Virus record (IMG/VR): IMGVR_UViG_3300049184_000035
Coordinates: 1 to 30,521 of that record
DNA length: 30,521 bases
Origin: a virus
Strand: one strand, 5' to 3'
Shown here: in pieces, positions 1-23,756 of the stretch
Layout of the letters: the number at the start of each line of letters is the position of its first letter
How positions within the stretch are numbered: the stretch's first letter is position 1
Made by a program: the position numbers and the translations under genes
The notes under the pieces: generated by a model
Told to the model about the DNA's origin: nothing
Seen by the model: the letters and a program-made list of their open reading frames with translations, nothing else
The model's database searches: none

Positions 1-240
1 CAGCTTCACTTTCACAAGCCGTTCAACACGTTCCTCGAATTTGCGCAGATCCGACTTGAGGATTTCTTCCGCTTCAACGTCATTGATCCGCATCCCGGCC
101 TTGACGTAGGGAATGCCAGCCGCGCTCGTATGGCCGTGACCTATGGTGAGCACATTCGCAACATCGCGGTAAGCGACCAATTCAAGCCCCTCCCACTGCT
201 TGATGAGGCGAACGCCTTCCGAGTTTGTCTTTCTTCCCAT
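1..240 (-). CDS. Phage lysozyme (GH24 endolysin), N-terminal 80 residues, truncated by window edge
   Basis: This is the N-terminal part of a T4-type lysozyme that cleaves peptidoglycan at the end of infection to release progeny. The visible reading frame has the signature EGLELVAYRD followed by TIGHGHT. Glu17, Asp26 and Thr32 have the same spacing (9 and 6 residues) as the T4 lysozyme catalytic triad. There is no signal or anchor sequence, so a holin elsewhere would be needed. The start ATG at 240 follows a GGAG ribosome site 7 bases upstream. The gene continues beyond base 1. Its neighbour on the opposite strand is an HNH-like gene, and beyond that lies a second, decayed copy of an endolysin start. 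The present 5' end may therefore be a replacement (see findings). The family call is firm; the C-terminus is unseen. Confidence 0.9.
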   Translation of the reverse strand, partial: MGRKTNSEGVRLIKQWEGLELVAYRDVANVLTIGHGHTSAAGIPYVKAGMRINDVEAEEILKSDLRKFEERVERLVKVKL

Positions 241-294
241 GCTAATTCTCCATAACTGTATTGCTACCCCGACCACGTCATGGTATGAGTAAGC

Positions 295-960
295 ATGACA
301 AAAAATCCAAGACTTGCTGATTTGAAAGGGCTGAAATTCAGCCGCTGGACTGTTTTAAGCCAGAGCGGAAATACGCCCGGTGGCGCTGCTCTGTGGCTGT
401 GCGCCTGCGACTGCGGTGTAGAACGAAGCGTGATGGGGGCCGACCTCCGAAGAGGAAAGTCGGTGTCTTGCGGGTGTGCGAGGACCGAACGGATTGCATC
501 TCTCAACAAGAGCCACGGATCGACAGGTACACGGCTTTACCAGACATGGAAAAACATGCGCGGGCGCTGCAACAATCCGAAAAGACCAGGATACAAAGAC
601 TATGGCGGGCGCGGGATTCGCGTCTGCCAGGAATGGGATGATTTTACATCGTTCAGAGACTGGGCGCTTGCGTCTGGCTACGCTAGCGATCTGACAATTG
701 AACGGGAGGATGTAAATGGCAACTACGAGCCGAATAACTGCACATGGGCTAATTCTGCGGTTCAGAGTGCCAATAGGCGGTTTGTGAGCAAGGCTGATGA
801 TGGCGAACTTTGGTTTCACAAGGCTCGCGCCAACGGCATTAGCACAGCGGCATATAGGACTCGGCTATATGAAGGATGGCCTATCGAAGAGGCCGCGACA
901 CACCCCATGCACTTACGTCGGGTTGAGCGCAAACGCGATGGCAAAGGGAAGTTCGTCTAG
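295..960 (+). CDS. Putative HNH-like homing endonuclease with zinc ribbon and C-terminal DNA-binding repeat
   Basis: The 221-residue protein belongs to a family common in phages, usually annotated as hypothetical or HNH-like. In order it has: an N-terminal segment with a Cys38-x-Cys40 ... Cys59-x-Cys61 zinc ribbon; a central block (about 78-124) with W-x2-M-x2-RC and YGGRGI; the block LTIEREDVNGNYEPNNC at 133-149; and a C-terminal repeat (about 175-204) ending YEGWPIEEA, like the DNA-binding modules of free-standing endonucleases. It is the only plus-strand gene in the first 26 kb. It lies between an intact endolysin start and a fragment of another endolysin start, as expected for an inserted mobile gene. 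The ribosome site is weak (GAG 8 bases upstream). Nuclease activity is inferred, since a canonical HNH triad is not obvious. Confidence 0.7.
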   Translation: MTKNPRLADLKGLKFSRWTVLSQSGNTPGGAALWLCACDCGVERSVMGADLRRGKSVSCGCARTERIASLNKSHGSTGTRLYQTWKNMRGRCNNPKRPGYKDYGGRGIRVCQEWDDFTSFRDWALASGYASDLTIEREDVNGNYEPNNCTWANSAVQSANRRFVSKADDGELWFHKARANGISTAAYRTRLYEGWPIEEAATHPMHLRRVERKRDGKGKFV

Positions 961-1002
961 CTTGATATGCGAAAGCCCCGCCGCGTTGATACGTCGTGTC
1001 AT
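961..1002 (-). pseudogene. Remnant of a second endolysin gene start (14 codons)
   Basis: On the minus strand an ATG at 1002 is preceded by a good ribosome site (AAAGGA, about 8 bases away) and encodes MTRRINAAGLSHIK. This resembles the start of GH24 endolysins and matches the first 14 residues of the intact endolysin at 240 (MGRKTNSEGVRLIK), with M, R, N, G, I and K conserved. The similarity stops exactly at base 961, next to the last base of the HNH-like stop codon. The frame then runs 15 meaningless codons to a stop at 913. I read it as the displaced 5' end of the original endolysin, left when the HNH-like gene inserted. The match is short, so chance cannot be excluded, but start codon, ribosome site, motif and position all agree. 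Confidence 0.55.
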
Positions 1003-1030
1003 TTGGGTTGTCCTTTTAGATTTGGGCAAT

Positions 1031-1057
1031 GAAAAAGGCCCCCGAGATGGGAGCCTT
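1031..1057 (-). terminator. Rho-independent terminator
   Basis: Read on the minus strand, AAGGCTCCC pairs with GGGGGCCTT across a 5-base loop (8 of 9 pairs, one mismatch). A TTTTT tract follows at once. It lies just after the methyltransferase gene and just before the endolysin fragment, so it would end transcripts from the tail-fibre side before the lysis gene. Confidence 0.75.
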
Positions 1058-1089: not shown

Positions 1090-1728
1090 CTACCGCCGCG
1101 CGTGCTTGTCGATAAAGATGCAGGAGAAGTCGAGCCGCGAGACGAAAGAATAATCGCGGGAAGTCATGAGCCCATAGATCGGACTGGATAGAACGCTTAC
1201 CACATCTGGATAGCCGAGCGTTTCGGTGATGATCATCTTCGGCCGGTGCTTTTCGGCCATGCTGCGGATGATCCGATAATCGAGCCCTTCAACGTCGATG
1301 CTCATCAGGTCAATGGGCTGCTTGGCGTGGGTTTCGATGATATCGTTGATCGTTCGACATTCGATTGTCTTGCGCTCGACAACCACCTGACCACGGTCAA
1401 CGTGGGTTTTCACATCCTCGTCGCTCAGGAAGCCGTTCAAGCCGGGATCGGTGAAGATCGTGAACAGCAGTTGCCCCGGCTCATCCGAGACGCCTGCTTC
1501 GATATTAGTATCTTCCGGCCGGTGGACCATGAATTCGTTCATGGCGCCAGGCATGGCGTCCACGTTCAGGCCTCTCCACCCCTTCCGGTAAAAATAGGCG
1601 GTATTTGATAGATTGAACGGATGATGTGCCCCGATATCGAGATAGTACCCGTTCTCTACCCCCAAAGTGTCGATGAGGATCTTATTGGCGACAATATCTT
1701 CGCCCTCCCACGAAAAACATGGCTGCAA
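1090..1728 (-). CDS. FkbM-family SAM-dependent methyltransferase
   Basis: This is a Rossmann-fold O-methyltransferase-like protein of about 212 residues. The SAM-binding motif I region reads YYLDIGAHHPFNLSNT, followed by GWRGLNVDA, and the later LMSIDVEGLDYRII holds the acidic loop typical of FkbM proteins. Members commonly methylate sugars of polyketides, polysaccharides or Nod factors; the substrate here is unknown. I place the start at a TTG at 1728, because AATAGGAG lies 8 bases upstream. A longer frame from a TTG at 1782 exists but has no ribosome site. The gene follows the tail-fibre genes and a 91-aa gene, and ends at a terminator. It is not a usual virion gene. It may be accessory cargo, for example one that modifies surface polysaccharide. 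Confidence 0.85.
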   Translation of the reverse strand: MQPCFSWEGEDIVANKILIDTLGVENGYYLDIGAHHPFNLSNTAYFYRKGWRGLNVDAMPGAMNEFMVHRPEDTNIEAGVSDEPGQLLFTIFTDPGLNGFLSDEDVKTHVDRGQVVVERKTIECRTINDIIETHAKQPIDLMSIDVEGLDYRIIRSMAEKHRPKMIITETLGYPDVVSVLSSPIYGLMTSRDYSFVSRLDFSCIFIDKHARR

Positions 1729-1797
1729 CGTGTACGCTCCTATTGGGTTGCAAGATGCAACGACACATCGCACACGTCGCAATCAAACGTCAATTGA

Positions 1798-7535: not shown

Positions 7536-8708
7536 TTATCGAATCCCCAGCGGGTCGGCGTTTTGGTCTGGCTGAGCGGCGATGCTCCCACCGCGACCAC
7601 GCATTGCCGCATCGCCAGCCGCCTTGATTTCGGCTTCGAGCTGATCAAGTTTTGTCTTCAGGCTTTCAGGGCCGTCTGCCAATGTCGGCATATAACGAGC
7701 CGTCTTTTCATCGATTTCAACCTGTGTCATGCCGGCGCCAGAGAGAAGGCGCGAAAGCACCTCAACCCCAGACTGGAATTTGCGCTGGATCTCTGCTGGT
7801 TTGCCATACCCAGCCCATGCCTGAGCGCGGTCAATTGGGCCGGTCGCTGCCTCAAGATTTTCGGGCTTGCGAAGGAAAGGAAGGTCATTTGAGAGGAAGT
7901 TTTCACCCATGCCGACACGCGCAGCCAATTCGCCAGGAACCTGCGTTGCTGGGCCACCGGGAATAGGCTTTACGCCCTTGCTTTGGTCATTAGGGTCAAG
8001 CCACTCGTAGCCAGAGGGCAGTTTGACGCCGGTGTTGATATCAATCTTGTTGCGGCCTGCCTCCTTCATTGTTATTTCATAGTCCATCCGAGTCCCTGTG
8101 AAGCCATCATCGACGGCCTGTTTATAGGCTTTCTCGGTCTCGCTGAGCTTCGCATTCGGATTGCGCAGGTTCTCAATTTCAAGCTGGGCTTTCTGAGCCT
8201 GCAAGCCCTGCATCGGGTCATTCATGTTCTTCAGGTAGTCGCCAAGCGCGGTAGGATTTGACGCGAGCATGCGAGCTGTTTGTTCATCCATTCCTTTGCC
8301 CTGCAGAAACTGCACGGTCTGGTTCTGGTCGGCGCGGCCACTTTTGCCCTTTGCGGCCTGAACGGCGCCTAGCGAAAGGCTCTGCTGTGGTGTCGAGCCG
8401 GCAGCCCAGCCAAGGAACATGTCTTGAAGGAATTGCTTGCGATCGGGGCTCAGCAGTCCACCAAGGCCGGCCGGCGCGTTCTGCTGGGCTTGCTGCACTG
8501 GTTGCGCTGCAGATGCCGTCTGCATCGGGTCAACGCGCTGAACGTCTTCTTCGCGCATGCCCTGCCACGGATCGACACCAGCGACGACAGGCGACGGCTG
8601 TGCGTCAGGGCGGCTCATGAGCATGTTCTGCACGCCTGCGCCGTCTGTCGGCTGCAAGAGCCGGTTCAAGGCGCCCGGGCCGAAGAGGTCCATGATATTG
8701 AATGCCAT
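7536..8708 (-). CDS. Ejection / internal virion protein (390 aa)
   Basis: No enzymatic domain is recognised. The N-terminus (MAFNIMDLFGPGALNRLLQP) is followed by a Gln/Ala/Pro-rich stretch and then long helical segments (about 130-215 and 280-375). It lies between the 248-aa protein and the 623-aa ejection protein, with 9 bases to the former and none to the latter. By synteny with other podoviruses this is the second of three ejection proteins (inference). Confidence 0.6.
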   Translation of the reverse strand: MAFNIMDLFGPGALNRLLQPTDGAGVQNMLMSRPDAQPSPVVAGVDPWQGMREEDVQRVDPMQTASAAQPVQQAQQNAPAGLGGLLSPDRKQFLQDMFLGWAAGSTPQQSLSLGAVQAAKGKSGRADQNQTVQFLQGKGMDEQTARMLASNPTALGDYLKNMNDPMQGLQAQKAQLEIENLRNPNAKLSETEKAYKQAVDDGFTGTRMDYEITMKEAGRNKIDINTGVKLPSGYEWLDPNDQSKGVKPIPGGPATQVPGELAARVGMGENFLSNDLPFLRKPENLEAATGPIDRAQAWAGYGKPAEIQRKFQSGVEVLSRLLSGAGMTQVEIDEKTARYMPTLADGPESLKTKLDQLEAEIKAAGDAAMRGRGGSIAAQPDQNADPLGIR

Positions 8709-22678: not shown

Positions 22679-23073
22679 GCTCTCAAAACTCCCTGCTGGC
22701 GAAGCCGTGCGACCATCTGCCGGCGACGTTCCATTTCTTCTGCGCTGACGACTTCCGGAATAGGCTCGGGAGGTGCGTTGCCGTAGTTGGCCGATAGCCG
22801 CGGCGTCGGGTGGTTCTGATCGGTGAACCGGCTTTCCTTCTTCGCCCAATCGCATTCGAACGAAATCCAAGCGCGTGTCAGATGGATCTCTGCCGCCTTC
22901 TCAGGGTCGCCAAACGCCTTGTATTCACGCACCAGGGCCTTTGCCACGCGAGCCGTCAGATGCGCTTTCTTGCGTCGTCTGTGCTTCACAACGTCAATGG
23001 CCAGGTCTTCTGGGAGAACTTCACGAAGAAGATCGAAGCCAGATTTTTCATCCGAATCCATTTTAATGCTCAT
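22675..23073 (-). CDS. Hypothetical 132-aa protein; N-terminal domain shared with the HNH gene upstream
   Basis: From the ATG at 23073 (ATGA overlap with the HNH gene) the product has a helical N-terminal domain at about 12-70, including LLREVLPEDLAIDVVKHR, GDPEKAAEIHLTRAW and a basic RRRKKAH. A Pro-rich linker and a C-terminal helix, EEMERRRQMVARLRQQG, follow. The N-terminal domain aligns by eye with the first ~60 residues of the HNH protein just upstream (DELAKDIIRYR / EDLAIDVVKHR; SPDPRLAAWEYLHRA / GDPEKAAEIHLTRA). The role is unknown, probably DNA replication or regulation by its neighbours. Confidence 0.75.
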   Translation of the reverse strand: MSIKMDSDEKSGFDLLREVLPEDLAIDVVKHRRRKKAHLTARVAKALVREYKAFGDPEKAAEIHLTRAWISFECDWAKKESRFTDQNHPTPRLSANYGNAPPEPIPEVVSAEEMERRRQMVARLRQQGVLRA

Positions 23074-23756
23074 GCCGCATCTCCTAGAAAATGCCCGCGG
23101 TGCTCCGCTACCGCTCGTTGGTATGCGGCGGATGCGTCTTCTTTCTCGGTAAAGCGTCCTAAACTTTTGGTCTTCCCCCCTACGCGGATAGACGCGAACC
23201 ACTTGTGCTTACGATTGTCCCAGGTAACCCCTGTGAATCCGCTCTTGTTGTTCGGATGCTGAGGCAGGTTCCAATTGTTTTCCTGTAGAGAGCACCCCCG
23301 CAAGTTTGCTAGGCGGTTATTCAATCTGTCGCGGTCAATGTGATCGGTAGCTTCAGGCCAAACACCAAACTCATAGAACCAAGCAAGTCTGTGAAGAAGA
23401 ACACTGTGCCCAGCAAGAGAGGTCGACAGGTAGCCGTGACTACCCAATGTCCCAAGCACCCTACCGGCCGGGGAATTTTGTCTGGATAACCGCGCCGTGA
23501 ATATCCCCGTCTCAGGATCGTAATGAACACATGCCTTCACATATTCCACTGTTAGGGATTTCGAATTAGCTGCGCGGTGCAGATATTCCCAAGCTGCAAG
23601 GCGAGGGTCAGGAGACTGCATCAATAACCGAAGGGTTATTTTGGCTCGATACACATCAAACGATTTTACTCGTCCAAGACTGTTCCTATACCGAATGATG
23701 TCTTTCGCCAGCTCATCGCCAAGGATTGGGGAAAGGACTTCCATTATCTCGTTCAT
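23070..23756 (-). CDS. HNH homing endonuclease with AP2 domain, fused to a partial copy of the neighbouring gene's N-terminus
   Basis: The protein (228 aa) has three parts. Residues 1-62 are a helical domain resembling the start of the next gene's product. Residues about 66-165 form an HNH nuclease: HYDPETGIFTARL, LHRLAWFYEFGVWP, then TDHIDRDRLNNRLANLRGCS, with His122, Asp138-His139 and Asn147-Asn148. Residues about 172-222 form an AP2 DNA-binding domain: SGFTGVTWDNRKHKW, SIRVGGKTKSLGRF, EDASAAYQRAVAEH. HNH-AP2 proteins are free-standing homing endonucleases. It overlaps both neighbours by 4 bases (ATGA), so it has been built into the operon without breaking translation. Confidence 0.9.
   Translation of the reverse strand: MNEIMEVLSPILGDELAKDIIRYRNSLGRVKSFDVYRAKITLRLLMQSPDPRLAAWEYLHRAANSKSLTVEYVKACVHYDPETGIFTARLSRQNSPAGRVLGTLGSHGYLSTSLAGHSVLLHRLAWFYEFGVWPEATDHIDRDRLNNRLANLRGCSLQENNWNLPQHPNNKSGFTGVTWDNRKHKWFASIRVGGKTKSLGRFTEKEDASAAYQRAVAEHRGHFLGDAA

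Follow-up and report, generated by a model that had tools for sequence, protein, structure and literature searches.

Free-standing homing endonucleases of phages are transferred together with co-conversion of flanking sequence (PMC2988022). In fungal mitochondria, mobile open reading frames (ORFs) that bring in a foreign gene end have been described in Allomyces and Glomus for atp6, cox2, nad3 and atp9, and in Glomus atp6 the native end is 91% identical to close relatives in comparison to 64% for the inserted end (PMC3630166). For the locus described here, in which an HNH endonuclease gene lies between a stranded lysozyme start and a complete lysozyme gene, the nearest precedents in bacterial viruses are HNH genes linked to marker exclusion (PMC12724721) and the boundary sequences in mosaic genomes (PMC3029335). 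The former belong to lactococcal Skunavirus phages, where HNH endonucleases recur at particular insertion sites and, in some cases, have marker exclusion activity against a rival phage (PMC12724721).

The stretch of DNA that was analysed, hereafter the window, is a virus record of 30,521 bp. A second record from the same phage population, IMGVR_UViG_3300049021_000038 (42,977 bp), was found to be a circular permutation of the window sequence, with joined parts that were 100% and 99.996% identical. As the two records are near-identical throughout, they were counted as one observation. The locus is identical in both, and the complete lysozyme of 227 amino acids is visible in the second record. 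The contig ends of this record meet at window positions 8047-8076, where the window has 28 additional bases, which suggests that the phage genome is about 43 kb and circular or permuted. The gene content includes a P22-type portal, a terminase and a coat protein. A second HNH gene (phrog_99), unrelated to the first and with the domains HNH_3 and AP2, was observed on the minus strand at 23070-23756. Just upstream of the lysozyme locus lies a gene for an FkbM-family methyltransferase (1090-1782, minus strand), which among the viral contigs was seen in the same phage population only.

The HNH endonuclease gene is located on the plus strand at 295-960, encodes 221 amino acids and ends with the stop codon TAG at 958-960. 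It is free-standing, i.e. a separate ORF outside any intron or intein, beside the complete lysozyme. The protein matched the PHROG family phrog_374 (HNH endonuclease) with an E value of 2.8e-62, and by this match the HNH identity, given as HNH-like in the original prediction, was borne out despite no match in Pfam or NCBIfam. The AlphaFold model of the protein had a mean pLDDT of 88 and was matched by many phage HNH proteins in a viral structure library. A sequence search of the PDB gave nothing useful and Foldseek gave nothing significant for the model against the PDB; PacI surfaced with a second aligner only, as the best structural match (Z 6.3, 2.5 Å, 73 residues, within residues 75-161). 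With this modest score, though to a nuclease of the class that was expected, the predicted fold points to a PacI-like nuclease core. In the window protein, the motif IEREDVNGNYEPNNCTW contains R137, D139, Y144 and N148. In an alignment of 32 HNH sequences R137 and N148 were invariant, and H74 was found in at least 90%. The D-to-E change at position 136 was rejected as a sign of lost HNH function, as the relatives at loci L250, L175 and L177 also have E there. Base composition was uninformative about a foreign origin of the gene (54.4% vs 56.4% GC, with 20% of windows as low).

Directly next to the HNH gene, on the minus strand at 961-1002, lies the stranded 5' end of a former lysozyme gene. 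Read from 1002 to 961 the sequence is ATGACACGACGTATCAACGCGGCGGGGCTTTCGCATATCAAG, translated MTRRINAAGLSHIK (ATG plus 13 codons), and its last base abuts the HNH stop codon. The open frame from this start would yield only MTRRINAAGLSHIKLDELPFAIAFALNPT, ending after 29 amino acids. The stranded start matched intact GH24 lysozyme starts at 38-40 of 42 nt (39/42 in L006, 38/42 in L003). Over these 42 nt it was about 90-95% identical to the uninterrupted lysozyme starts of about 30 Hyphomicrobiales phage or prophage lineages, from Rhizobium, Ochrobactrum/Brucella and Ensifer/Sinorhizobium, in which the same 14 codons run straight into QWEG at codon 15. Both an endolysin-type start on the minus strand ending at 961 by the HNH stop and relatives that join this sequence directly to codon 15 had been put forward in the original prediction, and both were found. 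The ribosome-site region of the former start is still recognisable (1003-1017, minus strand), with AAAAGGAC upstream of the ATG. The homology to L003 reaches window position 1017, i.e. through this region (84.5% over 960-1017). By these matches, the stranded 14 codons were confirmed as the start of a GH24 lysozyme. A terminator-like hairpin (1035-1057, minus strand) was observed immediately upstream of the stranded start.

The present lysozyme (GH24, PF00959) is encoded on the minus strand, starts at 240 with MGRKTNSEGVRLIK and extends beyond the window, to 227 amino acids in all (complete in L002). The gap between the divergent HNH and lysozyme starts (241-294) holds its ribosome site, ATGGAGAATTAGC ATG. 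Expression of the lysozyme must come from a promoter near 241-294 or else run through the hairpin, the stranded start and the HNH gene on the opposite strand. The closest uninterrupted lysozyme, L003, matched the present one at 96% (amino acids) and 86% (DNA) over codons 43-145, but at 50% and 56% over codons 1-30, where it was among the most distant of 33 lysozymes compared. A breakpoint scan against L003 placed the best single break near codon 34, with an identity of 0.53 before and 0.86 after the break (p 2e-4 by 5,000 codon permutations). As the body of the gene is 96% L003-like, the stranded start is also L003-like and the break lies near codon 34, the recipient lysozyme was most likely L003-like and the stranded start its own former start.

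The region at 1-137 (minus strand, codons ~35-80) would then be a recipient-type lysozyme body (85% nt identity to L003 over 8-137; PF00959), and the region at 138-240 (minus strand) the imported lysozyme 5' end, codons 1 to ~34 (MGRKTNSEGVRLIKQWEGLELVAYRDVANVLTIG). With the left junction at 960/961 and the right junction taken from the breakpoint scan, the putative imported segment covers 138-960 (about 823 bp) and contains the HNH gene, its flank and about 34 donor lysozyme codons. Codons 15-34 of the recipient lysozyme are gone from the window. Insertion after codon 14 together with a replacement 5' end, as originally proposed, therefore stood in both parts, while the replaced length was corrected from 14 codons to about 34 by the breakpoint.

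The closest HNH relative found, at locus L250, was 57% identical over the full length with both ends included, so that the HNH gene of the window is not truncated, also at its C-terminal end. In L250 the HNH gene lies divergent against the Pfam-confirmed lysozyme of another phage, in the same position as in the window, and the sequence after its stop codon held no stranded start. L250 is, as judged from its sequence, a donor-type arrangement of an HNH and lysozyme pair. A 13-nt flank, CGTCATGGTATGA (276-288 in the window, plus strand), is common to both loci and sits 19 or 20 nt before the HNH start; a common string of this length was found in the 60-nt upstream regions in 0 of 2,000 shuffles. 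The HNH proteins of the window and L250 are 57% alike and the lysozymes 40%, in line with movement of the nuclease gene from one lysozyme locus to another. Incoming DNA with an opposite-strand nuclease and a new 5' end, which was the core of the original prediction, agreed with the remnant being closer to relatives, with the break at codon 34 and with this donor-type pair. Import of the HNH gene together with a donor lysozyme 5' end is well supported.

Among 150 loci with HNH relatives, a lysozyme start directly against the HNH start was found in two (L250 and the window's own phage). By this adjacency, two distant phages link the HNH subfamily to lysozyme starts. HNH relatives in some other phages sit among DNA-metabolism genes, and no HNH relative in the Hyphomicrobiales genomes had a detectable lysozyme of this type within about 1.5 kb. 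L401 has a lysozyme 49% identical to the one in L250, and no HNH gene precedes it. No donor similar at the DNA level was found in viral contigs, in about 400 Hyphomicrobiales genomes or in annotated phages when these were searched with the lysozyme 5' end, the HNH protein and HNH profiles, nor was an empty and occupied pair from near-identical phages found. The arrangement of the window was a single occurrence, with its two records being one phage.

In comparison to known systems, the window is like the seg and mob free-standing homing endonucleases of T-even phages (PMC2988022) in having an intronless nuclease gene by a conserved phage gene, apparently moved with its flank, here about 34 foreign lysozyme codons beside the HNH gene. 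Recurrence of the HNH gene beside a lysozyme in other phages amounted to one further case, L250, with the other relatives elsewhere. In T4, however, both flanks are homologous between donor and recipient, whereas in the window one side appears to have been joined without homology and a stranded start was left. The nuclease genes of T4 group I introns also interrupt phage genes (PMC2988022), but the window is without an intron and the gene is restored by a new 5' end and not by splicing.

With the fungal mitochondrial mobile ORFs the window shares an endonuclease ORF, a divergent replacement end and a displaced native end that is kept (PMC3630166). The displaced end is also closer to relatives, with 38/42 nt for the stranded start and 0.56 nt identity for the present codons 1-30 (both against L003). 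In contrast to the fungal ORFs, the replacement affects the 5' end instead of the 3' end, the nuclease gene runs antisense and not on the same strand, and the nuclease is HNH and not LAGLIDADG or GIY-YIG. A self-mobile element of the fungal kind, the likeness drawn in the original prediction, is at most a candidate reading. By analogy, the locus resembles the fungal mobile ORFs in outcome, as their mirror image, and membership is not claimed. The Skunavirus phages likewise carry HNH genes (PMC12724721), but these are I-HmuI-like, whereas the HNH protein of the window is phrog_374 with a PacI-like predicted core and its gene is found at the lysozyme. As in phage mosaicism through illegitimate or boundary-sequence recombination (PMC3029335), the junctions lie near gene boundaries and gene function is kept; unlike in those mosaics, the junction recurs in one conserved 5' block before several endolysin families.

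The layout of the window was also found with another gene in place of the nuclease. L120 and L126 both have a lysozyme start of 9 codons, then an antisense gene whose stop codon lies directly against this start, and then a complete lysozyme. The antisense protein belongs to phrog_17682, with function unassigned, and no nuclease profile matched it. L036 and L131 represent the uninterrupted state, with upstream DNA the same as in L120 and L126; in L029 and L118 the antisense gene and the lysozyme stand together behind different upstream DNA, which is the donor state. This architecture indicates that a nuclease is not needed and that ordinary recombination can produce the layout. Relatives having both starts and no HNH gene, which the original prediction had named as evidence against itself, came down to L120 and L126; as these carry a different gene between the two starts, the insertion reading was not refuted. 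Upstream of this arrangement (L120 4532-5001, and L126), an apparent diverged second copy of the antisense gene was observed.

From 2.9 million viral contigs, a pattern search with an 18-nt core of the lysozyme 5' block picked out just 44, three of them chance matches and the others carrying the block. Over all loci, intact lysozymes made up 50 of the 64 distinct block copies. The block was stranded before GH19-like endolysins of phrog_181 (L195, L245 and L240, and also L227, about 450 bp further on), before a phrog_90 endolysin (L234) and before an amidase endolysin (L221), and in L225 it was joined in frame to another protein. Among the stranded copies, L240 has lost the start codon and L209 is frame-shifted, which makes a conserved leader peptide unlikely as a general reading. 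With related copies counted once, there were eight truncated copies, of which seven break off in codons 8-16 and the remaining one, L242, near codon 55. The core search is blind to copies shorter than 8 codons and sees longer ones; if ends were even over codons 8-145, seven of eight ends in codons 8-16 would have a probability of about 4e-8 by chance (hand arithmetic). The junction of the window at codon 14 belongs to this recurrent pattern. On the sequences compared, endolysins have repeatedly been replaced at this stranded 5' block.

Altered lysozyme copies were also observed. In Ensifer/Sinorhizobium prophages, decayed additional lysozyme copies lie 3-4 kb upstream of the intact lysozyme (L032/L123 at 1160 and L033 at 1799). 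Among L025 (5001), L024 (5001) and L132 (3917), the lysozyme genes showed a stop at codon 16, a disrupted frame with a repeated segment, and an internal duplication.

The 5' block is conserved at the DNA level. In lysozyme pairs with less than 75% protein identity, codons for the same amino acid were identical in 85% inside the block vs 39-49% elsewhere, and the synonymous-site conservation spans codons 2-14. Among 25 non-redundant genes, codon 7 was GCG in 25/25, codon 10 CTT in 25/25 and codon 3 CGA in 24/25, where codons 3-8 contributed to the selection of the set and codons 9-13 did not. When about 31 lysozymes were picked by a body identity of at least 75% alone, all but two or three had the block. 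The AT-rich Bartonella branch is without the block, and adding Bartonella dilutes the signal to 53%. In L167 the body is about 59% identical in DNA and the block 98%; conservation of the block in DNA despite divergent genes was observed also in L006, L095, L098, L107 and others. An RNA hairpin was rejected as the cause, with folding not clearly above that of shuffles. A host gene was likewise rejected, as the block was present in only 8 of 395 Rhizobiaceae genomes, nearly all in lysozyme or endolysin contexts, with one match in a different gene. No match to the block was found in annotated phage genomes. In mycobacteriophage cluster K, the start-associated sequence recurs many times per genome, as a 13-bp repeat ahead of gene starts (PMC3203893); the block does not fit this pattern, being part of the coding start and mostly present as a single copy in a contig. 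Its conservation may come from a recombination boundary maintained by exchange, or from a regulatory DNA or RNA element. A broader reading, which we consider rather unlikely, is that the ~30-42-nt block (CGACGCATCAACGCGGCGGGGCTTTCGC core) is a DNA element and a preferred exchange point for endolysins (GH24, GH19-like, amidase and others), and that the HNH gene of the window exploits this locus and brings a replacement start.

We propose that a lysozyme-linked free-standing HNH gene entered an older lysozyme together with a donor 5' end, and that the HNH protein made the break (intronless homing with co-conversion), with a probability of about 0.5. Read in the lysozyme direction, the locus would consist of old codons 1-14, the antisense HNH gene, a gap with a new ribosome site, about 34 donor codons and the recipient body. 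A break would have opened in the recipient lysozyme somewhere from codon 14 to codon ~34, in the region of the conserved catalytic stretch QWEG...GYGHT. On the body side, homologous recombination with the donor lysozyme would have been followed by leftward copying of the donor 5' end and then of the neighbouring HNH gene, and the other end would have been joined to the remaining 14 codons with no evident homology, as an illegitimate end. The product would have been kept by selection because the lysozyme stayed complete. The old start, the HNH gene in full length, the breakpoint near codon 34 and a donor-type pair in another phage are seen in the sequences themselves; the step that we infer is the break by the HNH protein itself, rather than the HNH gene being a passenger.

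The same import with the nuclease as a passenger is a serious contender, to which we give somewhat less than an even chance. Ordinary mosaicism would then have moved a donor cassette of a gene X plus lysozyme, X happening to be HNH; on the right, homology within the lysozyme would have guided the crossover, and on the left the cassette would have been joined within the conserved 5' block. The identical layout with the non-nuclease phrog_17682 in L120/L126, with its uninterrupted (L036/L131) and donor-type (L029/L118) counterparts, agrees well with such a course, as do the starts stranded before phrog_181, phrog_90 and amidase endolysins with no nuclease involved. A passenger, however, would not be expected to be so tightly paired with lysozyme starts as this HNH subfamily is in two phages that are distant from each other. 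This linkage favours homing, whereas the nuclease-free twins favour a passenger.

Import itself would be dispensed with if only the HNH gene had inserted after codon 14, with the lysozyme downstream of it later evolving a new start in place. The two starts can indeed be aligned, at 24/42 nt (vs 38/42 for the stranded start and L003), but codons 1-34 are abruptly unlike the L003 lineage while the remainder is 86% identical, and the present 14 codons form a full homologous N terminus with a ribosome site, of which insertion after codon 14 leaves neither; we regard this course as very improbable. In an intron, the 14 codons would be exon 1 and splicing would restore MTRRINAAGLSHIK-QWEG, and exact joining would restore the lysozyme reading frame. 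A group I or II intron was nevertheless disfavoured to the point of being hardly credible, as no Rfam intron family matched on either strand up to E 5, the HNH gene is antisense with its stop abutting the putative 5' splice site so that no intron 5' sequence is left, and the present lysozyme has its own start and lacks no part. Just as far-fetched is a chance likeness of a short ORF to a lysozyme start, which was refuted by the blastn E values of the stranded start against many lysozyme starts (about 1e-10 to 1e-14 over 42-57 nt) and by the rarity of the 18-nt core.

The locus shows how the genes of cell-wall-dissolving enzymes get swapped, with the nuclease as the driver being a possibility. 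Even if the nuclease is a passenger, the stranded starts are an unusually clear record of whole-endolysin exchange, with 8-16 old codons left. If the nuclease drives the transfer, the locus would be a bacterial-virus counterpart of the fungal gene-end elements, acting at the 5' end of an essential lysis gene.
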